Assembly (NCBI GenBank): GCA_015056145.1
Contig: SVGY01000003.1
Coordinates: forward strand, 1-64,000
Length of the DNA stretch: 64,000 bases
Source: Clostridiales bacterium
GTDB lineage: Bacteria; Bacillota; Clostridia; Christensenellales; Aristaeellaceae
Reading direction: 5' to 3'
Part shown: positions 1 to 19,530 of the stretch, one piece after another
How the letters are laid out: each line of letters begins with the position of its first letter
Position numbering within the stretch: position 1 is the first letter of the stretch
Notes under the pieces: model-generated
Told to the model about the DNA's origin: nothing
The model's input: the letters and a program-made list of their open reading frames with translations, nothing else
The model's database searches: none
Program-made: the position numbers and the translations under genes

Positions 1-1
1 G

Positions 2-994
2 GGCAACGCCAACTACCTGTGGATCTCCTATTTCTACGCCTACCTGAACGAAACAGGCCGGGCGGGTTTTGTGATGGCATCCTCCGCCACGGACAGCCAG
101 GGCAAGGATAAGGACATCCGTGAAAAGTTGATCCGCACCGGGCATGTGGACTGCATGGTCTCCGTGGGCAACAACTTTTTCTACACCAAGTCCCTGCCCT
201 GCTCCCTGTGGTTCTTTGACAAGGGGAAGGCGGAAGCCATCCGTGACCGGGTGCTGTTTATCGATGCCCGCAACTACTATACCGTGGTGGATCGCACCCT
301 GAACGAGTGGAGCGACTGGCAGCTGAAGAACCTGAACGCCATTGTGTGGCTGTACCGGGGCGAGGTGGACAAGTACCGGGAGCTGATTGAGGAATACAAA
401 CATGCTATTTGCAACGAAATGAAGATGGCTGCATCATCACTTCAATCCGTTGCAGGTAGTTTCGTTATCAAATACCGTCAGAGCCTGCTTGATGCTGCCA
501 AGAGATTGACTGAAATCAGCACAGAATATTCATCTTCCTTCAAGGAGGAACTCCGTCTCGCCACGAAACTGCTTCGAGATACCTGCAAAGCGTATTTTGA
601 TGAATATTCCAAGGGCAATAGAATTGTTACGGATGAAGTGCTTTCCAATGGTACCTCCAAAAAAGCCATTGCTCTGGATGTTGACGAAACTGCGGCGGTG
701 TTGGAATGCGCCAGTTTGATTGTTTCTGAATACGAGTGGCTGACTGACAAGTTTGGCGATGGCGAATATGCGGATGTGCCCGGTCTGTGCAAGGTAGCCA
801 CGCTGGAAGACATTGAGCAGAAGGGCTGGTCGCTGACTCCGGGCGCATACGTGGGCATAGCCCCTGTAGAGGATGACGGCGTGGACTTTGCACAGCGCAT
901 GAAGGAGATCCATCAGGAGCTGCTGATGCTACAGGAGGAGTCGAATCGGTTGATGGACACCATCTCTAAGAATATGGAGGAGATGGGGGTATGA
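2..994 (+). CDS. hsdM: Type I restriction-modification DNA methyltransferase subunit (HsdM), C-terminal part, truncated by window start
   Basis: Frame open from base 2 (GNANYLWISYFYAYLNETGRAGFVMASSATDSQGKDKDIREKLI...); C-terminal LTPGAYVG motif; followed by hsdS and hsdR. Confidence 0.93.
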   Translation, partial: GNANYLWISYFYAYLNETGRAGFVMASSATDSQGKDKDIREKLIRTGHVDCMVSVGNNFFYTKSLPCSLWFFDKGKAEAIRDRVLFIDARNYYTVVDRTLNEWSDWQLKNLNAIVWLYRGEVDKYRELIEEYKHAICNEMKMAASSLQSVAGSFVIKYRQSLLDAAKRLTEISTEYSSSFKEELRLATKLLRDTCKAYFDEYSKGNRIVTDEVLSNGTSKKAIALDVDETAAVLECASLIVSEYEWLTDKFGDGEYADVPGLCKVATLEDIEQKGWSLTPGAYVGIAPVEDDGVDFAQRMKEIHQELLMLQEESNRLMDTISKNMEEMGV

Positions 995-2217
995 AGTGGG
1001 AAAAGGCTATCCTTGGTGATGTCACAGATTCATGTTTAGGAAAAATGCTGGACCAAGAAAAAAACCGAGGTGAGTACCAACCTTATTTGGCAAACATCGA
1101 TGTCCGCTGGGGTAGTTTTAATCTCGACAATCTGTCGGAAATGCGCTTTGAAGACGATGAAGATGAGCGATATGGTCTGAAATATGGCGATCTTGTTATT
1201 TGTGAGGGTGGAGAACCGGGACGATGCGCAATCTGGAAAGATCAGATTCCAAACATGAAAATTCAAAAAGCCTTGCATAGAGTCCGTGTACACAAAGAAC
1301 TTGATTATCGCTACTTGTTCTATTGGTTTTTATTTGCAGGAAAAACAGGAGCACTCGAGCAATATTTTACCGGTGCCACCATAAAGCATATGCCCGGTCA
1401 AAAGCTAAAAAGTGTTATTATCGACAAACCACCAATTGAAGTCCAGTGCCGCATTGCTGACATTCTCTCCGCATACGACGATCTGATCGAGAACAACCAA
1501 AAGCAGATCAAGTTGCTGGAGGAGGCCGCCCAACGCCTGTACAAAGAATGGTTTGTAGACCTGCGCTTCCCCGGCCACGAAACCACGTCCATTGTAGGCG
1601 GCATCCCCAAAGGATGGTTTATGACAACTGTAGGAGATATAGGTTGTCAGATTGAGTCTGGTTCTCGACCAAAAGGTGGCATAGATTTGTCTTTGCGAGA
1701 TGGCATTCCCAGCATTGGCGCAGAAAATGTTATTGGATTAGGAAAATATAATTTTTCTGCAGACAAACTTGTCTCGTTTGAGTTTTACAACTCAATGAAA
1801 AGAGGAAAACTCAAGGATCGTGATATTCTGATATATAAGGATGGAGCATACATAGGACGAACAAGTTTGTTTCAAGACGGTTTTCCACACGAAAAGGCCG
1901 CAGTAAATGAACACGTATTTTTGTTGCATACAGAAAACAAAAGTCTGCAATACTTCCTCTTTTTTACGCTATACCAGTATGAATACTTTGTAAAAATGCA
2001 GAAGCTAAACAAAAATGCAGCACAGCCAGGAATTAGTGCACAAGCAATGCTGTCTTTGGACATTTTATTACCTCCATTTCATGTGGTTCATGCGTTCGAT
2101 GAATTTGTTTCACCAATTATGAAAAACATTTTTGCAAAAGCAAAGCTGAATCGTGAACTGGCTGAAGCTCGTAATCGTCTCCTTCCAAAGCTAATGAGCG
2201 GAGAAATCGAGGTGTGA
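991..2217 (+). CDS. hsdS: Type I restriction-modification specificity subunit (HsdS), two TRDs
   Basis: Central ILSAYDDLIENNQKQIKLLEEAAQRLYKEWFVDLRFPG and terminal RNRLLPKLMSGEIEV are typical HsdS conserved regions; 4-nt overlap with hsdM. Confidence 0.94.
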   Translation: MKWEKAILGDVTDSCLGKMLDQEKNRGEYQPYLANIDVRWGSFNLDNLSEMRFEDDEDERYGLKYGDLVICEGGEPGRCAIWKDQIPNMKIQKALHRVRVHKELDYRYLFYWFLFAGKTGALEQYFTGATIKHMPGQKLKSVIIDKPPIEVQCRIADILSAYDDLIENNQKQIKLLEEAAQRLYKEWFVDLRFPGHETTSIVGGIPKGWFMTTVGDIGCQIESGSRPKGGIDLSLRDGIPSIGAENVIGLGKYNFSADKLVSFEFYNSMKRGKLKDRDILIYKDGAYIGRTSLFQDGFPHEKAAVNEHVFLLHTENKSLQYFLFFTLYQYEYFVKMQKLNKNAAQPGISAQAMLSLDILLPPFHVVHAFDEFVSPIMKNIFAKAKLNRELAEARNRLLPKLMSGEIEV

Positions 2218-3299
2218 TTATGGAAAATATCTCTGAATTGGAACGGTTGATTTCCATTCGTATTATGCAGGAAGATGCTGAAGCGATTTTCTCTTTGCTT
2301 TCAACTGAAAGAGATAGTGTCTTTGCAATGGAAATTATTCCATATTACGCTTTGTTTGTACAATCGTGTCAAGAGTATATAGGTGAAAACTTTCTTCCAG
2401 AAGAAATTACACTGAGTATTAAAGATATCCGTAACCATATCAAGTCTTATTCGGACTCTTTTGGAAAGTCCAAAAGGAAAGTTGCATCAATAGATCAAGA
2501 ACAGGATACAAGTTTCAAATCACAATTGAGATTCAATTTCCTCAAAAACTGGAATATTCATTTGAATCTCGGCACTTATTGGACAGAAGATCATCACATC
2601 ATAGGCAACACGCAACAGTTGGCAGCGTTTATTGATGTGAAAGATTTCTCAACTCCTGAAGCAGGAAAGAAAGCGTATGAGTTAGGGTATCAGATTGCTT
2701 CATTCGTTTCCTCTGTGCGTAGTGGTTTTTCTGACTCTTTAGGACAACTAATAATTGATAGACCCATCACTGCAATCGGAATAAAAAAATTTTTTGATAT
2801 CAACACAAACAGGCACAACACAATTTTCGTAAATCACGCATCCAAAGAGCTGAATCTTTTCTATTTACATCTCTTGTGCAACATGAATTTTGTTAAACAC
2901 ATTTTAAGACCGTTGTTACCCGAAGGAAATACATGGGCCTTTCGAGTGGAATACATAGTTACTTACTATACATTCCGAGCTTTGCAACGGTTGAAGAATT
3001 ATTGCGAGAACAACGACGATGTTGTAGCAGATACACAAGGGATTGGCGAAATTGAAGATGCTGCAAGCGGATTATTTCTTTCAAAATTCCGCAACTGCAT
3101 GATGCACTATAATCTTGAAAACCAAGGTGTTCTTTCACTTGAACATATTGAACAGCCATTCTATGGTATTATAGAAAATTGCTTTGAAAGCAAGGTATAC
3201 CAAACCTATTTGGCTTCGATTCACGATCTATCTGAACGGATAATCCGTTATTTGGAAAAACACTTTAATTGTGCTGACATTGAGTTGAAACAGCTATAA
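2214..3299 (+). CDS. Uncharacterised protein with C-terminal HEPN-like RNxxxH motif, embedded in the hsd operon (start may be ATG 2220)
   Basis: 361-aa ORF overlapping the hsdS stop; contains SKFRNCMMHYNL (R-N-x3-H); no Walker A motif found by eye. Confidence 0.75.
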   Translation: MIMENISELERLISIRIMQEDAEAIFSLLSTERDSVFAMEIIPYYALFVQSCQEYIGENFLPEEITLSIKDIRNHIKSYSDSFGKSKRKVASIDQEQDTSFKSQLRFNFLKNWNIHLNLGTYWTEDHHIIGNTQQLAAFIDVKDFSTPEAGKKAYELGYQIASFVSSVRSGFSDSLGQLIIDRPITAIGIKKFFDINTNRHNTIFVNHASKELNLFYLHLLCNMNFVKHILRPLLPEGNTWAFRVEYIVTYYTFRALQRLKNYCENNDDVVADTQGIGEIEDAASGLFLSKFRNCMMHYNLENQGVLSLEHIEQPFYGIIENCFESKVYQTYLASIHDLSERIIRYLEKHFNCADIELKQL

Positions 3300-3311
3300 G
3301 GAGATGCCATC

Positions 3312-6300
3312 ATGAGCTACGAGTACTCCGAAAACATCCTCGTGCAGGAAAGCGCAGGCCACCTGCTCCAGCAGGAGCTGGGGTGGGAGGTGGCGTTTGC
3401 CTATAACACCGAGAAGCTGGGCAAGGATGGCACCTTTGGCCGCAGCAGCTACCGGGAGATTTTGCTCAGCCGGTATTTTCGTGGTGCGCTCAAACAGCTT
3501 AACCCATGGATCACCGATGCGCAGGTGGACGAAGCCCAGAAAAAGCTGGAGGGGCATCTTTCCACCGCTTCGCTGATGCAGATCAACGAGGAAAACTACT
3601 TCCTCATCCGGGACGGCATCCCGGTTACGGTGCGCAAGCCCAACGGTCAGACCGAGACCCGGCATGCCATGGTCATCGACTTCCATCACCCCGAGAACAA
3701 TCACTTTCTCGCCATTAAGGAGCTGAAGATTCACGGCGATCTCTACCGCAGGCGCACAGACATCGTGGGCTTTGTCAACGGCATCCCCCTGCTGTTTGTG
3801 GAGCTGAAAAAGAACACCGTGGATGTACAGGCCGCCTACGACGGCAACTATACCGACTATCTGGATACCATCCCCCACCTGTTCCACTACAATGCCTTTC
3901 TGATCCTTTCCAACGGCAGGGAGGCCAAGGTGGGCACGCTGGGCAGCAAGTACGAGTTCTTCCACGAATGGAAACGCCTCTCCGAAGGCGATGCGGGCAG
4001 CGTTGCGCTGGAAACCATGCTGCGGGGCATCTGCCGCAAGGAAACCTTCCTCGATCTATTGGAAAACTTCATCCTCTACGACCACAGCGGCGGCAGAACG
4101 GTCAAGATCCTTGCCCGCAACCATCAGTATCTGGGTGTGAACGAAGCGGTCAAAGCCTATGAAGCCCGCAAGCTCAACAACGGTAAGCTGGGCGTGTTCT
4201 GGCATACGCAGGGTTCGGGCAAGAGCTACTCCATGGTATTCCTCGCCCAGAAGATCCGCAGGCAGTTTGAGGGCAGCCCCACCATTGTCATCCTTACCGA
4301 CCGGGAGGAGCTGAACCGTCAGATCAGCGATACATTTGAAAACTGCCATCTGCTCGGGGCAAAGGCGGCGCAGTTCATCGCCACCAGCGGCACCGATCTG
4401 ATCAACAAGCTGAAGGGCAACCCCAGCTTTGTCTTCACCCTGATCCAAAAATTCAACATGACCGATGTGGATCCCATCTATCCGGATCACGACATCATTA
4501 TCATGTCCGACGAGGCACACCGCAGCCAGTACGGCGTGTTTGCCGATAATATGATGACGCTGCTGCCCACGGCATCCCGCATCGGCTTTACCGGCACGCC
4601 GCTGCTGTCCGGCGACAACATCACTGAGCGCACCTTCGGCGGCTATATCTCCGTGTACGATTTCAAACGGGCGGTGGAGGACGGCGCAACCGTGCCCCTG
4701 TATTATGAGAACCGGGGTGAAAAACTACAGGAGATCCGCAATCCGGAGATCAACGAACGGATTCTGGATGCCATCGAGTCTGCCGATCTGGATGTGAACC
4801 AGCAGGAAAAGCTGGAACGGGAGTTTGCCAAAGAGATCCATCTGCTTACCGCCGAAGCCCGTCTGGATGCTATCGCCAAAGATTTTGTGAGCCACTATAC
4901 CGATCTGTGGAACAGCGGTAAAGCCATGTTCGTCTGCCTGAACAAGGTTACCTGCGTGCGTATGTACAACCTTGTGCAGAAACACTGGCAAACCGCCACC
5001 GAGGAACTGCGGCAGCGTATCCGTCATGCGACCCAGCAGGAAGCTCAAGAGCTGACCCGCAAGCTGGAATGGATGGAGCAGACCGAAATGGCGGTGGTCA
5101 TCAGTCAGGAGCAGAACGAAATTAAGACCTTCCAAAAATGGGGGCTGGATATTCTGCCCCACCGTACCAAAATGGAAAAGCGGGAATTGGACAAGGACTT
5201 CAAAAACGCCGAGCATCCCTTCCGGGTGGTGTTCGTGTGCGCCATGTGGCTGACCGGCTTCGATGTAAAGAGCCTGTCCTGTCTGTATCTGGACAAGCCC
5301 CTGAAAGCCCATACCCTGATGCAGACCATCGCCCGTGCCAACCGTGTTTCGGTGGGCAAAAGCAACGGTTTGATCATCGACTACATCGGAATCGTCAAGG
5401 CGCTGCGAAAGGCATTGGCGGACTATACCGCCAACCTTGAGGGCGGCAGTCAGGATCCCACCATCGACAAAGAACAGTTGGTCAATCGGGTACACGAATT
5501 GATCAGCACGGCTACCGACTATCTGGCAGAGTTTAATTTTTCTGTTGAAGCGCTGGTGAATGCACAGCACTTCGCCAAGCTGGAGCTGTTGGAGGTGGCA
5601 GCCAATGCGCTTTGCGAAACCAGAGAGATCAAGAAAACCTACTGCACCTATCTTTCTGAGCTGACCCGTCTGCTCAAATACTGTGACCGTGATGATGTGG
5701 ATACCGCCACCCGGCGCACCAAAGATGCGCTGGTAGCGATCTACGACGAGTTGCAGAAAAGGCGTATGCATTCCGACAATACGGACTTAATGGTGCAGAT
5801 CAATGCTATCGTGAATGAGTATGTACAGGTAGGTGAAGAACCAGCGTCCTCTCAGGAGAACAAGCGGTTCGACATCAGCCAGATCAACTTCGACCTGTTG
5901 CGCCGTGAGTTTGCCAAGGCCGCCAAAAAGAATCTGATCCTGAAGGATTTGGATGATCTGGTACAGCAGCGGCTGGATCAGATGCTGCGGGAGAATCCCT
6001 GCCGCATCGACTATTACGAGCGGTATCAGGAGATCATTACTGCCTACAACGCCGAACAGGATCGTGCCTCTATCGAAAAGACTTTCATGGAGTTGATGGA
6101 GCTTGCCAATTCCATGGATACCGAGCAGCAGCGTTATGTGCGTGAGGGTTTCTCTTCCGACGAGGAGCTTTCCATGTACGATCTTCTGTTTACCGATAAT
6201 CTGAGCAAGCAGGATATTCAGGCCATCAAGAAAGTGGCGGTGGATCTGCTGGCGAAGATCAAACAAAAGATCGCCGAGTTGGATCACTGGACAGATAAGC

Positions 6301-6443
6301 AAGAGACCAAGGCTATGATCGACAATTTGATCCGTGACACTCTGTGGGCTCAGCTGCCGGAGTGTTATGATGAGATCAGTATTTCCGGATATCGACAGAA
6401 GATCTATGAGTATGTGTATACAAGGTATCGTGGGGTGGCGTGA
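3312..6443 (+). CDS. hsdR: Type I restriction endonuclease subunit R (HsdR)
   Basis: 1043 aa; nuclease region (GIPLLFVELKK), GVFWHTQGSGKSYSMVFLAQ Walker A, SDEAHRSQYG, GFTGTPL, QTIARANRV helicase motifs. Confidence 0.96.
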   Translation: MSYEYSENILVQESAGHLLQQELGWEVAFAYNTEKLGKDGTFGRSSYREILLSRYFRGALKQLNPWITDAQVDEAQKKLEGHLSTASLMQINEENYFLIRDGIPVTVRKPNGQTETRHAMVIDFHHPENNHFLAIKELKIHGDLYRRRTDIVGFVNGIPLLFVELKKNTVDVQAAYDGNYTDYLDTIPHLFHYNAFLILSNGREAKVGTLGSKYEFFHEWKRLSEGDAGSVALETMLRGICRKETFLDLLENFILYDHSGGRTVKILARNHQYLGVNEAVKAYEARKLNNGKLGVFWHTQGSGKSYSMVFLAQKIRRQFEGSPTIVILTDREELNRQISDTFENCHLLGAKAAQFIATSGTDLINKLKGNPSFVFTLIQKFNMTDVDPIYPDHDIIIMSDEAHRSQYGVFADNMMTLLPTASRIGFTGTPLLSGDNITERTFGGYISVYDFKRAVEDGATVPLYYENRGEKLQEIRNPEINERILDAIESADLDVNQQEKLEREFAKEIHLLTAEARLDAIAKDFVSHYTDLWNSGKAMFVCLNKVTCVRMYNLVQKHWQTATEELRQRIRHATQQEAQELTRKLEWMEQTEMAVVISQEQNEIKTFQKWGLDILPHRTKMEKRELDKDFKNAEHPFRVVFVCAMWLTGFDVKSLSCLYLDKPLKAHTLMQTIARANRVSVGKSNGLIIDYIGIVKALRKALADYTANLEGGSQDPTIDKEQLVNRVHELISTATDYLAEFNFSVEALVNAQHFAKLELLEVAANALCETREIKKTYCTYLSELTRLLKYCDRDDVDTATRRTKDALVAIYDELQKRRMHSDNTDLMVQINAIVNEYVQVGEEPASSQENKRFDISQINFDLLRREFAKAAKKNLILKDLDDLVQQRLDQMLRENPCRIDYYERYQEIITAYNAEQDRASIEKTFMELMELANSMDTEQQRYVREGFSSDEELSMYDLLFTDNLSKQDIQAIKKVAVDLLAKIKQKIAELDHWTDKQETKAMIDNLIRDTLWAQLPECYDEISISGYRQKIYEYVYTRYRGVA

Positions 6444-7298: not shown

Positions 7299-7910
7299 AT
7301 CACGATTTACCAACACATCAAGGAACGCATCCCTGTACCCCGGGCCGCCGAGCATTACGGCATGAAGATCACCCATAACGGTATGACCACCTGCCCCTTT
7401 CACGAGGACAGAGACCCCAGCATGAAGCTGAACGAGCGGTACTACTACTGCTTCGGATGTCTGGTGTCGGGAGATGTGATCGATCTCACGGCGCAGCTGC
7501 TTCAGCTGAGCAAACGGCAGGCAGCGGATCGGCTGGCGGCAGATTTTCATCTGACGGACAGCCCATCGGCGGTGCAAACCACACCCGCAAAGACCACTTG
7601 CTCCGTACAAAGCAGACTCAGCGAACTGCGCAGCGTGCTGCTTGCATACGAGGCCACCCTGAAAAAACGGAAAGCCATTTTTGCGCCGGCAGCGCCCGAA
7701 GATGAAATCGACCAGCGGTACATTGCCACCTGCAACCTGCTGGAAGGCATCCGCTATCTGATCGATTCGCTGATCTTCGGCACCGCAGAAGAAAAAGAAA
7801 TGACGCTGGCAGCTTTCCATCAGGATGGGCTGAAGGAGCAGCTGGAAGAGTACATTCAAACATTGATACAGGAGGAACAGCATGCAATCGGCGAGCAACT
7901 ATTTTCGTGA
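7299..7910 (+). CDS. CHC2 zinc-finger DNA primase-like protein of a mobile element (start codon uncertain; first ATG is 7362)
   Basis: Protein ...RIPVPRAAEHYGMKITHNGMTTCPFHEDRDPSMKLNERYYYCFGCLVSGDVIDL: CPFH...CFGC zinc ribbon; aaggaggt at 7283-7290. Confidence 0.8.
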   Translation: MTIYQHIKERIPVPRAAEHYGMKITHNGMTTCPFHEDRDPSMKLNERYYYCFGCLVSGDVIDLTAQLLQLSKRQAADRLAADFHLTDSPSAVQTTPAKTTCSVQSRLSELRSVLLAYEATLKKRKAIFAPAAPEDEIDQRYIATCNLLEGIRYLIDSLIFGTAEEKEMTLAAFHQDGLKEQLEEYIQTLIQEEQHAIGEQLFS

Positions 7911-9189
7911 AACCATCCCCGCTCCCCTCTGGCTGGACTACAAAGGACGGGTCAACGAGGCGACCTTTGCCACGGACTTTCTGCGAACCCACCCCATGAT
8001 CTGCCTTCAAGGCAAGCTGTTTACGGTGGATGGACTGATTGAGGACGAAGCCGCTTTGCTCCGGGAGATCTTCGAGATGATCAGCGGGCACGTGACCACC
8101 AATCTGGCGAAGAAGTCCAAGCAGCTGCTGGAAGCCATCAAGCTGGCGTGTCACTCTGCGCCGCTGCCGGTGCAGTCGGACCGCATCCACATGGCCAACG
8201 GAACCTACTTTCTTGACGGCCGGTTCGACACCGCCAAGGATTTCTGCCTGAACCGTCTGCCGGTTCGTTACGATCCATCCGCAGCGGTGCCGGAGCGTTG
8301 GCTGCAGTTTGTGGATGAGCTGCTGATGCCGGAGGACATCCCTGCCCTGCAGGAGTTTTTCGGGTACGCGCTGCTGCCTGTTACCAAGGCACAGAAAATG
8401 CTGTTGCTTGTAGGCAAGGGCGGCGAGGGCAAGTCCCGGATCGGGCTGGTGCTGCGCTCGCTGTTGGGAGCCAACATGAACACCGGCAGTCTGCAAAAGG
8501 TGGAGACGGATCGTTTCGCCCGGGCAGATCTGGAATACAAGCTGCTGATGGTGGACGATGACATGCGCATGGAAGCCCTCACCGAAACCCATCATCTGAA
8601 ATCCATGGTGACGCTGGAGGATCGCATCGACATTGAGCGCAAGGGTGTACAGAGCACTCAAGGCGTGCTGTATGTGCGCTTCGCCGCCTTCGGCAATGGT
8701 GGTCTGCATGCGCTGTACGACCGCTCCAACGGATTCTATCGGCGGCAGCTGCTGCTCACCACCAAGGATCCTGCGCCTGGTCGGGTGGATGATCCGTACC
8801 TGATCGAGAAGCTGCGTTCTGAGAAAGAGGGTATCCTACTCTGGGCATTGGAGGGGCTGCACCGGCTCATCGACAACCAGTATCACTTCACCATCAGCCC
8901 CCGGATGGAGGAAAACCTCCGGGAAGCGGTGGCAGAGAGCAACAATCTGGTGCAGTTCATGGAGTCCTCCGGATACATCATTCTGGAGAAAGGCTCCGTT
9001 GCCCGGTCCACCAGTCTGTACACCGCCTACGAGCGCTGGTGCACCGACAATCTTGAAAAGCCGCTGTCCCAGAAGACCTTCGTACAGTTCCTTAGGCAGA
9101 ACGAAGTCACCTACGGCATCTCCTATTCCAAGCATGCGGTGGGTGATCAGCGCGGGTTCCACGGCATTCAGGTGAAGTACGTGAACTGA
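7882..9189 (+). CDS. Phage/plasmid primase, P4/D5 family helicase
   Basis: LLVGKGGEGKSRIGLVLRSLLG Walker A; LLMVDDDMR; D5-type helicase region; FAAFGNGGLHALYDRSNGFYRRQLLL. Confidence 0.85.
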   Translation: MQSASNYFRETIPAPLWLDYKGRVNEATFATDFLRTHPMICLQGKLFTVDGLIEDEAALLREIFEMISGHVTTNLAKKSKQLLEAIKLACHSAPLPVQSDRIHMANGTYFLDGRFDTAKDFCLNRLPVRYDPSAAVPERWLQFVDELLMPEDIPALQEFFGYALLPVTKAQKMLLLVGKGGEGKSRIGLVLRSLLGANMNTGSLQKVETDRFARADLEYKLLMVDDDMRMEALTETHHLKSMVTLEDRIDIERKGVQSTQGVLYVRFAAFGNGGLHALYDRSNGFYRRQLLLTTKDPAPGRVDDPYLIEKLRSEKEGILLWALEGLHRLIDNQYHFTISPRMEENLREAVAESNNLVQFMESSGYIILEKGSVARSTSLYTAYERWCTDNLEKPLSQKTFVQFLRQNEVTYGISYSKHAVGDQRGFHGIQVKYVN

Positions 9190-9330
9190 TGCAAAAGAAC
9201 CCGCCCCAGCCGCCCGGTGCGCCCATGACGGGCAGTTTGGGCGGCTGGGGCGGGTGAAATGGAGTTTGTTTTCATGGATAAGCGAACGGCAATTTGCCAA
9301 AACTTAACAATGTTAAGGAGGATATTGCAA

Positions 9331-9597
9331 TTGGAGATCAACGTAAATGACGAGATGAAGATGGTGGATATCTGGCTGACCAATGCAGAGAAGAATGATC
9401 CCGCCGTGAAGGCGCAACTGGATCAGGTGTATGCCCAGTACAAAAAAAAGAAGTACATGGTGGCTACATTTCTGTCGGGGAACCAGCCGCTGCAGCCCAG
9501 CATTTCGGATCTGCTGAAGTACAACCGGCGCAAGAGTGCGGAGGTTGCTGTGCAGAAGGCGAAGGGCGCTGGGAGACCGGTGGGGAGGGATCGGTGA
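9331..9597 (+). CDS. Small hypothetical protein (ORF open from 9259; TTG 9331 has the best-spaced ribosome-binding site)
   Basis: aaggagg at 9315-9321, 9 nt before TTG; basic C-terminus. Confidence 0.5.
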   Translation: MEINVNDEMKMVDIWLTNAEKNDPAVKAQLDQVYAQYKKKKYMVATFLSGNQPLQPSISDLLKYNRRKSAEVAVQKAKGAGRPVGRDR

Positions 9598-9895: not shown

Positions 9896-11596
9896 ATGAA
9901 TAGTATTGAACTAAAAACCATAAACGAACTATCTATATACTCTTTTTTCATTCCTGCTTATCAACGAGGTTATCGTTGGACCCCACAGGAAGTTACCGAT
10001 TTATTGATGGATATTGATGAATTTATCCCACGCGAACTCGGAGATGGAGAAAAAAAGACTTGGTATTGCCTCCAACCGATTGTTGTAAAAAATCGTAACG
10101 AAGGCTTATTTGAAGTGATTGATGGACAACAACGATTAACAACTATATATTTGATTTTGCATTATCTGAATCAAGATTATGTTGAGAAAAAGCGTGACAA
10201 GTTGTTTTCTATTGATTATGAAACGAGAAAAGATTCCAAAGAATTCCTAAGTAATCCGGAGTTAGAGAACGAAGAATGTATAGACTATTATTTCATTCAC
10301 AATGCATACTCAACAATTGAAAAATGGTTTGATAAGCGTGAAGAGGATTCCTCGTTCGATAAAAACGAATTTAGATCAAAGCTTAAATTCCATACAAAAG
10401 TCATATGGTACGAAACGACAGAAGACAATGCCATTACTGTCTTTACCAGATTGAATATTGGAAAAATCAGTTTGACTAACGCCGAACTGATCAAAGCTTT
10501 GTTTTTGAACAGTTCCAATTTTAGAGCGGGCAACGAGGATCGAGTTAGACTGCGGCAGATTGAAATAGCAAACGAGTGGGACAGCATCGAAACAGCCTTG
10601 CAAAACAATAAGTTGTGGTATTTCTTGAGTGACGAACAAAAAGAAGATAATCGTATAGAATACATTTTTAATCTCATGAATGATTCAGGAGAAACAGACC
10701 AATATTCTACTTTCCGCTTTTTCTATTCTTGTCTGGCTGGAAAAAGCGAAGAAGTGATGAGCAGTTACTGGGAAAAAATCCAAGCGCATTATCAGCGTTT
10801 TAATGAGTGGTTCAGCGAACGGGAACTGTATCATAAAATTGGGTTTTTGCTTGCTTCAAAAATAGCGAAAATCAAAGATCTGTACAACTGCTCAACATCA
10901 CTAAAGAAAAGAGAATTTGTTCAACATATTGACATGCTGATAAAAAATCATTTCAAACATCAAAATTTGTTTGAATTAGATTATGAGAATAAAAACACAC
11001 AAAATGTTCTTTTGCTATATAATATTTTGACTATGCTACAGAACGAACATGATTCATCCTATTTTCCCTTTGATGAATACAAGCAAAACAGATGGAATAA
11101 AGAACATATTACTTCTCGCAAAGATGTGACCTCTATTCCTGTAATTAATAGGCGTGATTGGCTAAGCGATGTAATAAGTTACATTGATATTTCTCAAGAA
11201 GATGCAAAAGATTTGCCATCATCAATTAACCTTATGCTTACAAATGAAACATATACCGATGATGATTTGTTCACAACATTGTTTGAGAAGATTACTTCGC
11301 ATTTTAATCAATTCATAAACAGCACAGAAGACATTGATGGAATATCGAATTTAGCTTTGTTAGATGAGAAAACGAACAAAGGATATAAAAACGCAGTATT
11401 CCCACTCAAACGGAAATACATCATCGAATTAGACAAAACCGGTGGCTTTGTTCCTGTTTGCACAAAGAACGTATTTCTTAAATACTTCAGCGATTATCCT
11501 CCAAAGATTTCATTCTGGACACAGGATGATCGCGAAAAATACGAACAAGATTTAATTCGAGTCTTGTGCAACTATCTGGAGGTGACAAAACAATGA
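9896..11596 (+). CDS. DUF262 domain protein (GmrSD/ParB-like fold), probable DUF1524-like C-terminus; candidate defence nuclease
   Basis: FIPAYQRGYRWTPQEV, VIDGQQRLTTIYL; C-terminal RWNKEHITSR resembling the DUF1524 EHI motif. Confidence 0.85.
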   Translation: MNSIELKTINELSIYSFFIPAYQRGYRWTPQEVTDLLMDIDEFIPRELGDGEKKTWYCLQPIVVKNRNEGLFEVIDGQQRLTTIYLILHYLNQDYVEKKRDKLFSIDYETRKDSKEFLSNPELENEECIDYYFIHNAYSTIEKWFDKREEDSSFDKNEFRSKLKFHTKVIWYETTEDNAITVFTRLNIGKISLTNAELIKALFLNSSNFRAGNEDRVRLRQIEIANEWDSIETALQNNKLWYFLSDEQKEDNRIEYIFNLMNDSGETDQYSTFRFFYSCLAGKSEEVMSSYWEKIQAHYQRFNEWFSERELYHKIGFLLASKIAKIKDLYNCSTSLKKREFVQHIDMLIKNHFKHQNLFELDYENKNTQNVLLLYNILTMLQNEHDSSYFPFDEYKQNRWNKEHITSRKDVTSIPVINRRDWLSDVISYIDISQEDAKDLPSSINLMLTNETYTDDDLFTTLFEKITSHFNQFINSTEDIDGISNLALLDEKTNKGYKNAVFPLKRKYIIELDKTGGFVPVCTKNVFLKYFSDYPPKISFWTQDDREKYEQDLIRVLCNYLEVTKQ

Positions 11597-13569
11597 ATAA
11601 AGATATACTCTCCTTTTTTGAGTTAGTCAGCGAATACTCTGTACAAATTCCAATCATTCAAAGAGATTATGCTCAAGGTAGAGAACGCAACTCGACAATT
11701 TGCGAGAATTTCTTAACAGCAATAAAGAACAGTCTTATTAACAACAACGCAATAAATCTTGATTTTATTTATGGAAACTTGATTAATGAATGCTTTCTTC
11801 CGTTGGATGGGCAACAACGGTTAACAACGTTGTTTTTGTTACACTGGTACGCTTTTTGTAAGGAACAAAGCAACGACGAATCCATTCGCTCAATTCTAAA
11901 AAAGTTTTCGTATGAAACGAGATTATCTTCTCGAAGATTTTGTGAAGCATTGGTTAATAGCGACATAGTAATCGACAGCAATGCGGATAAGCTCAGCGAA
12001 CAAATACATGATTCAAGATGGTTCTTTATTTCTTGGAAGAATGATTCGACAATAAGAGCTATGCTGCGCACAATCGATTGTATACATGCTAACTTTAAAA
12101 ATGTTGAAAATATATGGGATTCATTGGTTGTGAAACGAAATGTCGTTTTCCACTTGCTTATCCTTGAGGACTTTGGTCTTTCGGATGACCTATACATAAA
12201 GATGAATGCACGTGGTCGTCTGCTCACTCCATTTGAAAACCTGAAAGCAGAAATAGAAGACAAAGTAGAAAGAAACCATTGGGAGGATAGCAAGAACGAA
12301 TTTGACAAGTTTTCACACAAAATCGATGGGTGTTGGACTCATTATCTATGGAAAAACTATCGAAAAAACAATTCTGTAGACAATGCACACATGAATTTTA
12401 TATCAACGCTGCTTATGACAAAATTGTCGACTGGACAAATCGTTAAGGGCTTGGAACGCATTCAGCTCATCCAAAAGTTGAACGATGATAATACGTGCAG
12501 AGAAATAATTGAGTATATTGACAAGGATACTTTTGATTACATATGTTCCTCTTATGAGCTGTATTGTAGACTATTAGAAACAAATGCAATTCCTCAGTTG
12601 ACATTTAGCATGTGGAGACATAGTCCAGAAAAAAATCTGCTACACCAGATCATGATCGGCTCTAACACTTCATACTCTCACAAAGTCTTGTTCTTTGCAC
12701 AAACAGAATATCTACATAGAAACCCTACCATTGATCAAGAAAAATTCTGTGATTGGATGCGTGTAGTTCGCAATATCGTTTCTCGAGCTGACCTTACTCC
12801 TGAAGGTAAACGAGCTGATATTGTTCGAAGGCCTGAATCCTTCAATGGTGCCATTAACCTGGTATATGAATTAGCAGCGGGTTGCGATGATATCTATAAC
12901 TATCTGAGAAACAATGCTGTATCTTCTGCCTTTACCCGTGACCAAATGAAGGAAGAAAGAATAAAAGCAAAGATCATTGTCGATACACCTCAATATAAGG
13001 AATTAATACATAAGGTAGAGGACAATGAGCTATTAAGAGGACATGTAATTTTTGCATTAGAATGTGCGAATTATCGAAACAGTGTTAGTGACATCGATTT
13101 TGAACTTCTCGAAAAAATCCAGAACGTATTCAACACGTATTTCAATAAAGAATTAGATAATTCAAACGTGGAATTTGATAAATTACGTAGAGCGTTGCTC
13201 ACGATCGAAGTTGACGGAAAATATCAGTTCTATAATTATTGGTGGTCTTACTGGTATGCAGGAAATGCAGAAAAAAGGAAACTTCTTTCTGTATATAGAG
13301 AAATCGAATATATAATCGGAAAAGCAGACTCATGTAAGTATTTCCGAAAGTTAGTTCTACTTCTTGTTGAACAAAGCTATGATGATATACTCAATGGATT
13401 TGTTAAGCCAGACAATATGGAAAACTGGCAGTATCGTCTAATAAAAGAGGAACGGTTGCTCTTTGGTTGCGACAAAAAATACATTGCAATACCAGACGAT
13501 CGCTCATATTGCTATTTGTTGAAAGGAATACGTCCTGCTACCATTGAGGGTTCCGTGAAAATTTCTTGA
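11593..13569 (+). CDS. Second DUF262 domain protein, translationally coupled to the first
   Basis: IPIIQRDYAQGR, LDGQQRLTTLFLLHWY, IKMNARGRLLTPFENLKAE; ATGA start/stop overlap at 11593-11596. Confidence 0.85.
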   Translation: MNKDILSFFELVSEYSVQIPIIQRDYAQGRERNSTICENFLTAIKNSLINNNAINLDFIYGNLINECFLPLDGQQRLTTLFLLHWYAFCKEQSNDESIRSILKKFSYETRLSSRRFCEALVNSDIVIDSNADKLSEQIHDSRWFFISWKNDSTIRAMLRTIDCIHANFKNVENIWDSLVVKRNVVFHLLILEDFGLSDDLYIKMNARGRLLTPFENLKAEIEDKVERNHWEDSKNEFDKFSHKIDGCWTHYLWKNYRKNNSVDNAHMNFISTLLMTKLSTGQIVKGLERIQLIQKLNDDNTCREIIEYIDKDTFDYICSSYELYCRLLETNAIPQLTFSMWRHSPEKNLLHQIMIGSNTSYSHKVLFFAQTEYLHRNPTIDQEKFCDWMRVVRNIVSRADLTPEGKRADIVRRPESFNGAINLVYELAAGCDDIYNYLRNNAVSSAFTRDQMKEERIKAKIIVDTPQYKELIHKVEDNELLRGHVIFALECANYRNSVSDIDFELLEKIQNVFNTYFNKELDNSNVEFDKLRRALLTIEVDGKYQFYNYWWSYWYAGNAEKRKLLSVYREIEYIIGKADSCKYFRKLVLLLVEQSYDDILNGFVKPDNMENWQYRLIKEERLLFGCDKKYIAIPDDRSYCYLLKGIRPATIEGSVKIS

Positions 13570-13640: not shown

Positions 13641-13796
13641 ATGCTGATGGTTATGCTTCATCAATATATCATACCCACTTGCAAGATCGAAACAAATGAT
13701 ATACAATATCATCTGCAATAAACGCATCCGCCGCAAACAAAGTTGAACCCTGTCGAACCCCCACACCCCCACACCCCCCAAGGAGGTCCCCCCATC

Positions 13797-15962
13797 ATGC
13801 CCGAACACTTCGACATCGCCGGCTACTGCCGAATCTCCGTAGACGACGAACTGGACCGCGATAACGTCTCCATCGAGAACCAGCGTGCCATCATAGCCGA
13901 CTTCGTCAAAACCCGCTTCCCCGGCAGCACCCTCACCTTTTACGAGGATCGGGATCGCTCCGGCTACACCTTTGAGCAGCGGGAAGGATACCAGCAGATG
14001 CGCAAGGGCTTGATGAGCCACCAGTACGATATCCTGATCGTGAAGGACTTCTCCCGTTTTTCCCGCCGTAACAGCCGGGGTCTGGTGGAGCTGGAAGACC
14101 TTCGGGATGCAGGTGCCCGGATCATCTCCATCGGGGACGGCATCGACTTTCCCAACGATGACGACTGGCTGAAAATCCAGTTCCAGTTTCTGATCAACGA
14201 AATGCCGGTCACCGATACCTCCAAGAAGGTGCGTAACGTGATCCGCCGCCGCCAGCAGGACGGGCAGTGGCTCTGCGCCGCCCCTTACGGCTACATTATC
14301 AACAAGCGCAAAGAATTCGAGATCGTGCCCACGGAGGCTGAAATCGTGCGGCTGATCTTTAAACTGTACGACGAAAGCGGCTGGGGTTATAAGAAGATCG
14401 CCAACCATCTGACGGAGCAGGGCATCCCCACGCCCCGGATGAGCGAGCAGATGCGCAAGGAGGCCGAGGGCGGTGAAAGCAACCGGCAGATCAAGCACGC
14501 ATGGGCCATTGTGACGGTTCAGGGCATTCTGGATAACGACTTCTACATCGGCACCTTCCGGCAGGGCAAGTACACCCGTGCCAAGATCAATGGCAAGGAT
14601 GTGAAGCGGGACGAGGGCGAGCACATCGTCATCGAGAACCACCATCAGGCTATTATCGACTACCGCACCTTTGCTACTACCAAGGCACTGCGGGAGAACC
14701 GTAGCCGTGCCAACTATCGTGGTGTCAAGAAGAACGACAATGTGTACTCCGGCTTCCTTGCCTGCGGCGACTGCGGCAGCCCCATGTTCGCCATGAGCCG
14801 CAGCGATTTGCAGCCCGCCTACACCTGCGGCACCTATCACCGCCGGGGCAGGGCAGGCTGCACCAGCCATCACATCCGGGTGGATAAGCTGGACGAGCTT
14901 CTGAAGATTTACGTCCGCAAGCTGATGCACGCCTCCGCCGGAATGATCGACAAACTGAACGCCGACCTTGCAGACGAGAACGACAGCATCACTGAAACGG
15001 AACAATCCGCCGACCATCTGGCGGAGGTACTGGAAGAACTGCAAGAGGAACTGAAGATCACCAAACGGCAGCGCATCCGGGACTTGCTCAAGCACCCGGA
15101 TCAGGAAAAGCTGCTGGAGGAAACCTACGACGAGCTGGAAAGCGACCTGCAACAGAAGATCGCCGGTCTCACCAACCAGATCCAGCTGCTGTCTGACAAG
15201 CGCAACACCATCATTCAGGTGAACCGGGTGGCCAAGACCGCCATGGACGTATTCCAAGACATTCTCGAAAAAGCCAAGCTGGATCGTACCGATCTGGAAC
15301 TCATCATCCGGCAGATCAAGGTCTACGAAGACCATCTGGAAATCCAGCTGCAGGCCGACATCGACACCCTCATCCGCACGGAAGCCATGGAGGACACCGT
15401 AAATTTTAATCAGGGCATCGAAAACTTGAGCTGCCGGATTGTCCAAACGGCCAGAAACCAGAAGGACAAGGTTTTCGATGTCCGTGTTATCAGTGACGGC
15501 GACCCGTTGGAAATCTACACCGACAGGGATGGCGAAGTGATCCTGAAAAAATATTCTCCCATTGGGGAAATGTCTTCCTTTGCCAAGGATTATACGGAAT
15601 CCATCTTCCGGGCCATGGGGCATATCGCCTGCATTGTGGACAGGGATCAGGTGGTGGCTGCCAGCGGTGTCAGCAAAAAGGAACTCAATGACAAACCCAT
15701 CAGCCCCGAAATGGAAACCGCTATTGCCAACCGGCAGACGGTGGCCATCAACCGTGCCGGCGGTGGTCGGATTGTGGCGGTAACCAGCGAGGAGGATATT
15801 AACGGATATACGGCTCAGGTGGTATCGCCCATCATTGCAGATGGCGAGGCCATTGGCGCAGTGCTTCTTCTGTCCAAGGAGCAGGGGGCGCACATGGGCG
15901 ATGCGGAACTGAAGGTGGCGGAAACTGCTGCCGGTATTGTGGGCCGCCAGATGGAACAATAA
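13797..15962 (+). CDS. Large serine recombinase (resolvase, recombinase and zinc-ribbon domains) fused in frame to a C-terminal SpoVT segment
   Basis: N-term DIAGYCRISVDDELDRDNVSIENQRAII, Recombinase and zf regions (SGFLACGDCGSPMF); from about 15500 GDPLEIYTDRDGEVILKKYSPIGEMSSFAKDY...AETAAGIVGRQMEQ matches SpoVT residues from about 31 to the end. Confidence 0.93.
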   Translation: MPEHFDIAGYCRISVDDELDRDNVSIENQRAIIADFVKTRFPGSTLTFYEDRDRSGYTFEQREGYQQMRKGLMSHQYDILIVKDFSRFSRRNSRGLVELEDLRDAGARIISIGDGIDFPNDDDWLKIQFQFLINEMPVTDTSKKVRNVIRRRQQDGQWLCAAPYGYIINKRKEFEIVPTEAEIVRLIFKLYDESGWGYKKIANHLTEQGIPTPRMSEQMRKEAEGGESNRQIKHAWAIVTVQGILDNDFYIGTFRQGKYTRAKINGKDVKRDEGEHIVIENHHQAIIDYRTFATTKALRENRSRANYRGVKKNDNVYSGFLACGDCGSPMFAMSRSDLQPAYTCGTYHRRGRAGCTSHHIRVDKLDELLKIYVRKLMHASAGMIDKLNADLADENDSITETEQSADHLAEVLEELQEELKITKRQRIRDLLKHPDQEKLLEETYDELESDLQQKIAGLTNQIQLLSDKRNTIIQVNRVAKTAMDVFQDILEKAKLDRTDLELIIRQIKVYEDHLEIQLQADIDTLIRTEAMEDTVNFNQGIENLSCRIVQTARNQKDKVFDVRVISDGDPLEIYTDRDGEVILKKYSPIGEMSSFAKDYTESIFRAMGHIACIVDRDQVVAASGVSKKELNDKPISPEMETAIANRQTVAINRAGGGRIVAVTSEEDINGYTAQVVSPIIADGEAIGAVLLLSKEQGAHMGDAELKVAETAAGIVGRQMEQ
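15495..15962 (+). pseudogene. spoVT: 3' portion of spoVT (lacks the N-terminal half of the AbrB domain) at the right junction of the element
   Basis: GDPLEIYTDRDGEVILKKYSPIGE plus GAF-like C-terminus; located immediately before SpoVB/yabM-mazG/yabN-hup as spoVT is in Bacillus. Confidence 0.85.
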
Positions 15963-16003: not shown

Positions 16004-16032
16004 TTGATAAAATGTGGCAATGTGCTTATAAT
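16004..16032 (+). promoter_or_regulatory. Sigma-A-like promoter for the SpoVB-like gene
   Basis: TTGATA-17 nt-TATAAT. Confidence 0.6.
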
Positions 16033-16134
16033 AATGAAGCACGCCGCATTTTTTTGTTTTTTTGCCTTGAGCGAAACATGGCGGCAGATGGCGACAAACC
16101 AAAGAACGGCTCAGGCTGTGACGGAGGAAGAACA

Positions 16135-17709
16135 TTGAGTAAAACGGCGAAATCCATTCTGGGCGGCATGACCATCCTCAGTGTGGTTGGTATTATCAGC
16201 AAGATCATTGGCGCATTGCATCGTGTGCCGCTGGCGTGGCTCATCGGCGATACGGGCATGGGTATCTATCAGCTGATTTTCCCGACGTATAATATGCTTC
16301 TGGCTATATCATCGGCAGGCCTGCCTGTGGCCATCAGCCGCATGGTCAGCTATTCTCTTGCCCAGGACGATCCCGGAAATGCAAAAAAGATCCTGCGTAT
16401 TGCCCTGTGCTTCCTTACGGCGCTGGGTTTTATTGCCATGATGCTGATGATCGTCTTCAGCCCGCAGCTGGCCGCAAGATCTCAGGATCCCCGGACGGAG
16501 CTGGGCTTTGTGGCCATTGCTCCGGCGCTTTTGCTGGTGTGCACCATGTCCGCACTTCGGGGTTTCATGCAGGGCCAGCAGAACATGGTTCCCACGGCCA
16601 TTTCTCAGTTTATCGAGCAGGTGGCCAAGGTGTTCATCGCTTTGCCGCTGGCATATTTTGGCTCCAAAATCAGTATGGCGCATGCGGTGGCAGGCGTGCT
16701 GCTGGGAACCTCCCTGGCGGAGGGGCTGGCGCTGCTGTTTATGTATGTGGTCTATCTGAAAAATAAGAAGACTTTCGCAGCCATTGCCCAGGATGCGGAT
16801 AAACCTGCACAAGGAACGCTCTCCATCCTCAAAAAGCTGATTGTTTTCAGTATTCCCGTTACCATCAGCGCCTGCATTGTGCCCATGTCCGCCTTTATCG
16901 ACAGCGGGCTTCTGTTGGGAAGGCTGATCCTTTCCGGTATAGAGCAGACCGAGGCCACCGCCCTCTACGGACGCTATTCCGGCTATGTGCTCACCATTAT
17001 TAACGTGCCCTCCGCCATTGCAGCGGCAATCTCCATGAGCCTGGTTCCCTCCATCTCGGCAGCTGTGGCCCGGGGAGATGGCCCTTTCATGCGCAAGCAG
17101 AGCGCACTGGGCCTGCGGCTTTCTTTTACCGTGGGCATGCCCTGCACGGTGGCGCTGTTCGTCATCAGTCAGAGGGTGCTCAGCCTGATGTTTAACATTG
17201 CGCCGGAGAACCTGCAAAAAACCGGCATGATGCTGAGCCTTTCCGCTATTACCATTGTGCTCTTTACGGTGGTGCAGTCCACCAGCGGTATCCTCCAGGG
17301 ATTGAAAAAACAGTGGATTCCTATGTATACGCTTCTGGCCGGCGTTGTGGTGAAAGTTATTCTGAACTACACCCTCATCGCCATTCCGGAGATCAATATT
17401 TTCGGTGCATCCATCGCTTCCATTACCTGCTATACCATCAGCATGCTGCCCAATCTGTTCTTCGTACACAAGTACACCGGGCTGAAGGTGCAATTGGTGG
17501 ATATTTTCTTAAAGCCGCTGGCAGCCTCCCTTTTGATGGGCGCCCTGGTGTACGCCTTGGGCCGCTGGCTGCCTGACGGACGGCTCTGGACGACGTTCAT
17601 CGTGCTGGTGGGCATTGCCAGCTATGCCGGTTTTGCACTTTTGACCGGCGCACTGAAGAAGAGCGACCTTGCGCCTTTCCTGCGCAGGGGTAAGAAACAG
17701 GAGGCATAA
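16135..17709 (+). CDS. SpoVB/YabM-like polysaccharide biosynthesis (MOP/MVF flippase) protein (ATG 16078 is an alternative start)
   Basis: LSKTAKSILGGMTILSVVGIISKIIGALHRVPLAWLIGDTGMGIYQLIFP; ggagg before TTG 16135; synteny. Confidence 0.88.
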   Translation: MSKTAKSILGGMTILSVVGIISKIIGALHRVPLAWLIGDTGMGIYQLIFPTYNMLLAISSAGLPVAISRMVSYSLAQDDPGNAKKILRIALCFLTALGFIAMMLMIVFSPQLAARSQDPRTELGFVAIAPALLLVCTMSALRGFMQGQQNMVPTAISQFIEQVAKVFIALPLAYFGSKISMAHAVAGVLLGTSLAEGLALLFMYVVYLKNKKTFAAIAQDADKPAQGTLSILKKLIVFSIPVTISACIVPMSAFIDSGLLLGRLILSGIEQTEATALYGRYSGYVLTIINVPSAIAAAISMSLVPSISAAVARGDGPFMRKQSALGLRLSFTVGMPCTVALFVISQRVLSLMFNIAPENLQKTGMMLSLSAITIVLFTVVQSTSGILQGLKKQWIPMYTLLAGVVVKVILNYTLIAIPEINIFGASIASITCYTISMLPNLFFVHKYTGLKVQLVDIFLKPLAASLLMGALVYALGRWLPDGRLWTTFIVLVGIASYAGFALLTGALKKSDLAPFLRRGKKQEA

Positions 17710-17713
17710 GATT

Positions 17714-19159
17714 ATGGCAACGTTGACCATCGTTTCTCTGGGAACCGGGGGAGAGGAATTCCTCACCAAGGGCACGGATCGCCTTCTGCACAGGGGCGGG
17801 CAGCTGGTGCTGCGTACAGAGCGGCACCCCATCGCCGGTTATCTGCGCCAGGAGGGAATTGCTTTTACCACGCTGGATGCCCTTTATGACAGCTGCGAGG
17901 ATTTTGATATGTTCAATAAGGCGGCGGCGGTGCAGTTGCTGACGCTGCTCAAAAACGGCGATCTTTGCTATGCTGTGAGCGATGCCAGTTTTGATAACAC
18001 CGTCCTCACCCTTCAGCAGCTCAAGCCCCGGGAGACGGACGTGCGCATCCTGCCGGGCGTAAGCATTGCGGAGCGCTGCCTTGCGCTGGTGGATCGGGAA
18101 AGCTGCGCCGTGCGCATTATGACCGCCAGCGAATTTGGCACCTATCGCCTTTCTCCGGAAGAACCCCTGCTGCTTTGCGAAATGTACAGCCGCGAATGCG
18201 CTGGCGACTGCAAGCTGAAGCTTATGCAATTGATGCCCGAGGAAATGACCGTGAGCCTGATCACCGGCGAGGAATCTACGGGCGACCTGACCCGGCAGGA
18301 TATTCCCCTGACGGAGCTGGACCGGCAGGGGCACTACGACCATCTGACGGCAGTATATGTGCCCGGGGTGGATATGCTCAGCCGCAGCCGTTTTGATATG
18401 GATGACCTGATCCGGGTGATGAAGAAGCTCCGTGCACCGGACGGTTGTCCCTGGGATCGGGAGCAGACCTACGAAAGCCTTCTGCCCAGCCTGCTGGAGG
18501 AAAGCTACGAGTACATTCAGGCCGTAAAGGATGAAGATATCGACCATATGTACGACGAGCTGGGCGATGTGCTTCTGCAGGTGGTATTCCATGCGGAAGT
18601 GGCCCGCCAGCACGGTGATTTCGATATTCTGGATGTGACCACTGCCATCTGCCAGAAGATGATCGAGCGGCATACTCACATTTTCGGTACCGCTGTGGCC
18701 AACACCGCCGAGGATGTGCTGGTGAACTGGGAGGCCATTAAGCGCAAACAGCGGGGCATCACTTCCATTGCCCAGGCCATGGAGGATGTGTCCACCGGGC
18801 TTTCGCCCCTGCTTCGTGCAAGCAAGGTGCAGAACAAAGCCGCCAAGGTCGGCTTCGACTTTGCGGATGCCAAAGAAGCGCTCAGCAAGGTTTACGAAGA
18901 AGCCGATGAGGTTGCCCAGTGCATCGATGAAAAAATCGATACCGAGGAAGAACTTGGCGATCTTTTATTTTCAGTTGTTAACGTGCTTCGCCTGTGCGGC
19001 AAAAATGGCGATATTGCTTTGTATGGAGCCATTTCCAAGTTTATTTCCCGCTTTTCCGGCATGGAAAAATCGATAAAAAATGCAGGAAAACGAATTGAGG
19101 ACTTGACTTTATCAGAAATGGATGTATACTGGAATACGGAAAAGCAAGAAAATAAATGA
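17714..19159 (+). CDS. mazG: Tetrapyrrole methylase/MazG nucleotide pyrophosphohydrolase (YabN-type)
   Basis: LRAPDGCPWDREQTYESLLPSLLEESYEYIQA and ELGDVLLQVVFHAEVA (MazG) after a methylase N-terminus. Confidence 0.93.
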   Translation: MATLTIVSLGTGGEEFLTKGTDRLLHRGGQLVLRTERHPIAGYLRQEGIAFTTLDALYDSCEDFDMFNKAAAVQLLTLLKNGDLCYAVSDASFDNTVLTLQQLKPRETDVRILPGVSIAERCLALVDRESCAVRIMTASEFGTYRLSPEEPLLLCEMYSRECAGDCKLKLMQLMPEEMTVSLITGEESTGDLTRQDIPLTELDRQGHYDHLTAVYVPGVDMLSRSRFDMDDLIRVMKKLRAPDGCPWDREQTYESLLPSLLEESYEYIQAVKDEDIDHMYDELGDVLLQVVFHAEVARQHGDFDILDVTTAICQKMIERHTHIFGTAVANTAEDVLVNWEAIKRKQRGITSIAQAMEDVSTGLSPLLRASKVQNKAAKVGFDFADAKEALSKVYEEADEVAQCIDEKIDTEEELGDLLFSVVNVLRLCGKNGDIALYGAISKFISRFSGMEKSIKNAGKRIEDLTLSEMDVYWNTEKQENK

Positions 19160-19254: not shown

Positions 19255-19530
19255 ATGAACAAAGCTGAATTGACTGCTGCCATCGTTAAGAAGACCGGTT
19301 TCACCAAGAAGGACGCCGAAAAGGCTCTGGGCGCTGTGACCGAAGTGATCACCGAAGCTCTGGCTAACGGCGAAAAGGTTCAGGTTGTTGGCTTCGGTTC
19401 CTTCGAAGTTCGCAATCGTCCCGCCCGCATGGCCCGCAACCCCCGCACCGGCGAGCAGATCCAGATCGCTGCTTCCAAGGCTCCCGTATTCAAGGCCGGC
19501 AAGGCTCTGAAGGACAGCGTGAACAAGTAA
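19255..19530 (+). CDS. hup: HU family DNA-binding protein
   Basis: MNKAELTAAIVKKTGFTKKDAEKAL...FGSFEVRNRPARMARNPRTGEQIQIAASKAPVFKAGKALKD. Confidence 0.97.
   Translation: MNKAELTAAIVKKTGFTKKDAEKALGAVTEVITEALANGEKVQVVGFGSFEVRNRPARMARNPRTGEQIQIAASKAPVFKAGKALKDSVNK

Follow-up and report, generated by a model that had tools for sequence, protein, structure and literature searches.

A mobile element carrying defence genes very probably uses the forespore gene spoVT as its attachment site in gut Clostridia

Known elements that change genes on integration

Serine-recombinase elements are known to split several sporulation genes, i.e., skin in sigK (B. subtilis and C. difficile), SPbeta in spsM, gin in gerE, and yin in yabG. 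The excision of skin is confined to the terminal mother cell; in C. difficile, the skin recombinase is constitutive, control is exerted through a directionality factor, and excision takes place solely in the mother cell (PMC5025042). Mycobacteriophages with integration-dependent immunity have their attP within the gene for the repressor (Broussard 2013, described in PMC9934374 and PMC6109161). Large serine integrases such as phiC31, Bxb1, and A118 recombine a dyad attP with a dissimilar attB at a 2-bp crossover, and engineered Int-RDF fusions of such integrases exist (PMC5737554).

The element described here interrupts spoVT, a forespore gene without which C. difficile does not form heat-resistant spores (PMC3789822). 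It was analyzed in a window of 64,000 nucleotides, i.e., the first 64 kb of contig C4 of a Clostridiales genome of 2.77 Mb. Like the skin-type elements, it carries its own recombinase, and its precise excision would rebuild the target. Unlike them, it interrupts a forespore gene, its recombinase gene is continuous in frame with the target, its int promoter is of vegetative type, it transfers recurrently across orders, and its excision at sporulation time is hypothetical. The resemblance to skin/sigK proposed in the initial annotation thus holds in part: a spore gene is split, with both halves present in order and in frame, but skin excises in the mother cell and spoVT is a forespore gene. A search of freely accessible full-text papers found the elements of sigK, spsM, gerE, and yabG and no report of spoVT as the target of an element.

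As described in the two sources cited above, integration-dependent immunity is the nearest known design: attP also lies in a 3' coding end and integration alters the C-terminus of the protein. There, the repressor loses a degradation tag; here, a serine integrase gains a host domain and the host gene is exchanged reciprocally. The integrase shares with phiC31, Bxb1, and A118 the domain order, the 2-bp crossover, the dyad attP, and the dissimilar attB, and differs from them in a natural exchange of its C-terminus on integration; its directionality factor is so far a candidate. New here are the reciprocal tail at the left end and the location of attP within the int coding sequence.

The fused gene and the split spoVT locus

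The ORF at 13797-15962 (forward strand, like all the window features below) is a 722-codon frame (721 aa), open throughout, in which a large serine integrase continues in frame into SpoVT, the latter being present from codon 31 through its last codon. Pfam matches to Resolvase (7-158), Recombinase (178-301), a zinc ribbon (317-369), and SpoVT_C (591-720, E 2e-43) occur in this single protein, confirming the in-frame fusion proposed in the initial annotation. The element-encoded part up to the crossover (13797-15500) comprises the catalytic, recombinase, and zinc-ribbon domains and a coiled coil, as defined by Pfam, an AlphaFold model, and a 28-sequence alignment, i.e., the architecture of a large serine integrase. 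The SpoVT portion starts at codon 31 (GDPLEI..., window position 15498), and the element-derived bases end with the core GA at 15501-15502. The spoVT part from codon 32 on (15503-15962) encodes an orphan half of the AbrB DNA-binding domain, the GAF domain, and the stop, as delimited by the SpoVT_C match and by tests of selection and conservation. The AlphaFold model of the fusion is weak overall (mean pLDDT 64); it shows the catalytic fold, a long coiled coil, and the GAF as a separately folded module, and residues 568-586, which include the orphan DNA-binding half, have very low confidence (pLDDT below 50).

Searching 85,462 species genomes with the window protein yielded 182 loci, and the best 80 of the 182 all run into SpoVT. 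We have read 86 loci, i.e., these best 80, five from relatives, and the window. The fusion is open through the end of SpoVT in 85 of the 86, from two bacterial orders, although this set was ranked by match and broken copies may be under-counted. The same junction is present in 85 further loci, which excludes a chance origin of the fusion. Most of the sources are metagenome assemblies, so a chimeric contig or an assembly artefact was considered. However, the same junction is present in dozens of independent assemblies, in a genome of only three contigs, and in the isolates Butyricicoccus pullicaecorum DSM 23266 and Agathobaculum butyriciproducens DSM 100391, making an artefact extremely improbable.

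The genes downstream of the fusion encode a SpoVB-like flippase (16012-17709), a MazG/YabN homologue (17669-19159), and HU (hup; 19255-19530), all identified by Pfam. In sister species, which lack the integrase, an intact spoVT is followed directly by the same SpoVB gene, and therefore the fusion sits at the native spoVT locus, as had been proposed. The SpoVT_C of the fusion is the only one in the genome, and no second full-length spoVT was found in its 2.77 Mb. The first 33 codons of spoVT are located on the minus strand of another contig (G000:C28:14867-14974), with 89% identity to the SpoVT N-terminus used as query. Thus, the 5' fragment predicted at the other edge of the element exists, and neither the lack of this fragment nor a full-length copy elsewhere, which would speak against an element inside spoVT, was observed. 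The expected location near mfd was not confirmed, since the left neighbour encodes a GrpB-NUDIX protein (Pfam). Base 1 of the window is already inside the element and the left junction lies outside it. Since contig C28 carries element sequence from the 5' half to the contig end, the element spans at least 30 kb in this genome. In eight relatives (G001, G009, G070, G263, G424, G429, G430, and G432), both halves of spoVT are found on one contig in the same orientation, 7-34 kb apart: 34 kb in G001, 26 kb in G009, 27 kb in G070 (the three-contig genome), 22 kb in G429, 18 kb in G430, 12 kb in G424, and 7 kb in G432. Together with the C28 fragment, this supports the proposal that everything left of the junction is an element inside spoVT.

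The element carries a type I restriction-modification system (1-6443; hsdM fragment, hsdS, and hsdR; Pfam and PADLOC), a CHC2 zinc-finger primase fragment with a D5/DUF5906 helicase-primase (7362-9189; Pfam), and two GmrSD_N (DUF262) proteins (9896-13569; Pfam, with weak PADLOC matches for the first), likely a restriction/defence pair. Between the last two lies an ORF of 112 aa (9259-9597) without any Pfam family, a homologue of which is found upstream of int, usually within 1.5 kb, in 71 of the 86 fused loci. Its position and conservation make this companion ORF the best candidate for the recombination directionality factor. The int gene has a ribosome-binding site (AAGGAGG, 13780-13786) and a vegetative-type promoter (TTGCAA, 17 bp, TACAAT; 13679-13707), the same arrangement being present in 46 of 82 loci. 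A conserved motif, TACAATRTYATCT (13702-13714), overlaps the -10 box in 46 of 82 loci, with 0 expected in shuffled sequences, and is a possible operator. Apart from small ORFs, the 6.9 kb of a compact relative (L050, 4807-12151) contain only int, the companion ORF, and two genes for AAA ATPases, and this relative is probably close to a minimal element.

Attachment sites and movement of the element

At the left end of the element, the 33 codons of spoVT are followed in the same frame by a conserved 23-residue tail, e.g., SQITGKAWEKFCFAMSDLAKRAGW-stop, which is found across 20 junctions. When the right and left ends of the element are joined, they form a near-palindrome, e.g., TCCATGTTATCAGTGACGGC-GA-CCCGTCACAGATAACAGGGA in G009 and G016. 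In 16 loci, the rejoined attP has 11-17 of 20 positions symmetric around GA (mean 15), and the corresponding values are 7-11 in attB, 6-11 in attL, and 4-8 in attR, i.e., inverted attP half-sites around a 2-bp core and a different attB, as in large serine integrases. The attP dyad centres on GA (15501-15502), within the aspartate codon (GAC) of GDP, and the crossover is therefore predicted there; GA is also the only segment common to attL, attR, and intact spoVT. This agrees with the site-specific junction expected near ggcgacccg. Comparison of the left, right, and intact junctions defines attR at 15481-15522, with the element half to the left of GA and the spoVT half to the right.

The left-end tail would be the own C-terminus of the integrase, as encoded in the circle. 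Its codons 1-8, close to the core, show a pS of 0.22 and a pN/pS of 1.6, being constrained as DNA, as a half-site would be. In codons 9-24, pN/pS is 0.35 in frame versus 1.1-1.5 in the other two frames, which points to protein-level selection on the tail and suggests that the excised circle is probably a real, functional state. Thus, the C-terminus of an element protein differs between the two junctions, as in an integration switch.

These data are best explained by a mobile, defence-carrying element that uses spoVT as attB and whose excision restores spoVT, an explanation that we consider very probable and that rests at the sequence level on the junctions, the shared core, the attP dyad, the alternative tail, recurrent transfer, and selection on both stranded ends. 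The window would hold the right end of this site-specific element, which measures at least 30 kb in this genome and 7-34 kb in the relatives, with attP within the 3' coding end of its own integrase gene and attB at about codons 26-38 of spoVT. In the circle, Int would end in its own 23-residue tail. On recombination of the circle with spoVT at GA, the two in-phase frames would swap their 3' ends, the integrated int becoming Int-SpoVT_C and the 5' end of spoVT gaining the int tail (33 codons plus tail, 57 aa). Excision would restore spoVT exactly, and the companion protein would probably serve as its directionality factor. The in-frame nature of the fusion would be due to the reciprocal int tail at the left end, which was outside the view of the initial annotation.

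The initial annotation had also raised the possibility that the recombinase-GAF chimera is itself functional, for instance with the GAF domain sensing a sporulation signal and controlling excision or integrase stability. The frame is always preserved despite a linker of variable length and sequence ahead of the junction, and the GAF part is strongly conserved and forms a separate module in the model. However, the constant frame is forced, because int must read through attP into its own tail, and the DNA-binding half, conserved to the same degree, would serve no purpose in a chimera. Moreover, in two relatives with spoVT intact elsewhere in the genome, the same int half-site is joined to other sequences: in G535 (contig C157, L246, core at 2506), it is fused in frame to the C-terminal part of DUF6506, and in G581 (contig C9, L245, core at 2921), it runs into an unrelated frame with an end about 40 residues further on. 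The DUF6506 gene of G535 would be an alternative target of the same element family, and the G581 junction is apparently off-target or uses a different attB. Since these integrases carry other fused sequences, the GAF domain does not seem to be needed for an integrated element to exist. A working chimera is therefore possible but unlikely, and so is a C-terminal switch in which the tail form of Int integrates and the GAF form, informed by the SpoVT ligand, excises the element in the prespore. If true, the switch would amount to a programmed germ-line rearrangement with re-integration after germination. The fusion appears to be mainly a structural by-product of having attP inside int, rather than an evolved chimera.

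According to the record titles, the best 80 loci belong to Clostridia, mainly Oscillospirales, with cultured Agathobaculum, Butyricicoccus, Flavonifractor, and Pseudoflavonifractor among the carriers. Of 394 evenly sampled genomes of Oscillospirales, the order of Butyricicoccus, 35 encode a related integrase. Two of these integrases are distant relatives (36-38% identity) whose ends lack the junction; among the remaining 33, all that were read or have the length of a fusion are joined to SpoVT, with two exceptions. Within the genus of the window, 7 of 17 genomes have a split spoVT. The element family is thus widespread in gut bacteria. The distances of Int and SpoVT_C are weakly correlated (r = 0.30): L045 and L064 have integrases that differ by 6% and SpoVT_C parts that differ by 58%, and L042 and L087 have SpoVT_C parts that differ by 4% and integrases that differ by 38%. 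This discordance rules out the fusion as one old vertical event. Since the two histories disagree, the elements must have entered the same spoVT codon of different hosts repeatedly, int gaining the SpoVT end of each host.

In IMG/VR, the window integrase alone gave no match, and an integrase alignment retrieved four close relatives (56-61%), three of them fused and one ending at the core; no left junction was found in the records of these four. A search of phages and plasmids for free forms returned only a fragment (MT839487) and a divergent fused copy (MT836658). The fragment (MT839487.1, L219) ends 16 bp before the core and L222 likewise stops only a few bases from it; such virome or viral contig ends at the attachment core would be expected if reads fork there. 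Two other genomes differ from the common arrangement. Ruminococcaceae bacterium P7 (G428) has two distinct junctions of 5' spoVT with a tail (L187 and L188) and a single fused integrase, which may reflect a mixed culture or a second element. G046, with an intact spoVT, also contains on C10 a 5' spoVT-like fragment (L039, 3411-3524) with a different tail, LELLTLNAFDRFYWAIHN, maybe of another element type at the same site.

Use of the split gene and its meaning for sporulation

Only excision of the element can undo the break in spoVT, whose product is required late in sporulation. The omega of SpoVT_C on the 3' half is 0.02-0.15, and 0.02-0.07 in pairs with similar Int and SpoVT_C dS, in which the element and the host half have probably travelled together; it is 0.04-0.07 in the pairs L085/L091, L105/L114, L114/L117, L059/L060, and L094/L111. 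Residues 42-50 of SpoVT, in the DNA-binding domain, are almost invariant in 83 fusions, although their partner strands are absent there. These values indicate strong purifying selection on the stranded half, which could partly reflect time spent without the element, and the invariant orphan half and the low omega fit a reconstitution of SpoVT. In the genus of the window, most genomes with a split spoVT keep a sigma-G-like promoter on the 5' half, as do their intact sisters (GCATAA-17-CATACTA, found in 2% of shuffles), and carriers have a sigma-G orthologue, clear and complete in nearly all of them.

A dead insertion, with the two pieces of spoVT as relics of its inactivation in lineages that have ceased to sporulate, could be suspected because most sources are MAGs and no excision product appears in the assemblies searched. 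However, it hardly fits the low omega, the intact ORFs, the conserved attP, tail, and 5' half, or the retained sigma-G, and with the selection tests largely refuting it, we consider this reading very improbable. Since the stranded half is still under selection, carriers probably restore spoVT, either in cells going on to sporulate or in a subpopulation.

One MAG, G012, has one contig with intact spoVT and another with the left junction, which share their first 141 bp, ending at GGCGACCC, and a single upstream contig overlaps both. This sample held both states, in one strain or two, and as the right junction and int are missing from the assembly, the fork could be two strains, which weakens its value for the preferred explanation. 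A similar pair in G002 was set aside, since its two upstream flanks differ, unlike those of G012. Searches that included attP patterns found no attP circle in 396 genomes of the order of the window, 394 Oscillospirales genomes, or the IMG/VR assemblies; assemblies keep circles poorly.

A stronger form of the restoration by excision is a programmed event like that of skin/sigK, in which the element leaves during sporulation and spoVT is rebuilt in the spore-forming cell. The conservation of both halves with the forespore-type promoter in the genus of the window, the selection on the 3' half, the presence of sigma-G, and the need for spoVT in C. difficile spores (PMC3789822) are in its favour. 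However, upstream of int and of the companion ORF, the regions covered by our scan, there was no excess of sigma-G/F- or sigma-E-like sites, and the int promoter is of vegetative type. The companion is only a candidate directionality factor, and internal or operon promoters could still provide such control. Because spoVT is a forespore gene, judging from its promoter and from C. difficile (PMC3789822), excision in the mother cell would not restore SpoVT where it is active. Excision in the forespore would in turn lose the element from the surviving line, unlike in mother-cell elements (PMC5025042, PMC5595907), and this is the main puzzle. A programmed excision therefore appears doubtful, though less so than a functional chimera. 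Of the precise excision suggested in the initial annotation, the intact spoVT as expected product stands, and its sporulation timing is not backed by the promoters found or by any assembled circle.

With spoVT, the spore genes known to be interrupted by mobile DNA now include a master regulator of the forespore. The carriers are gut bacteria, the sporulation of which has hardly been studied, and the C-terminus of an integrase would depend on its integration state. Since the site of action of spoVT is the future spore, three options would be left to carriers: to rebuild the gene in the germ line, to do without proper spores, or to maintain a mixed population. Annotated int-SpoVT "fusion genes" may thus be read as a signature of interrupted sporulation.
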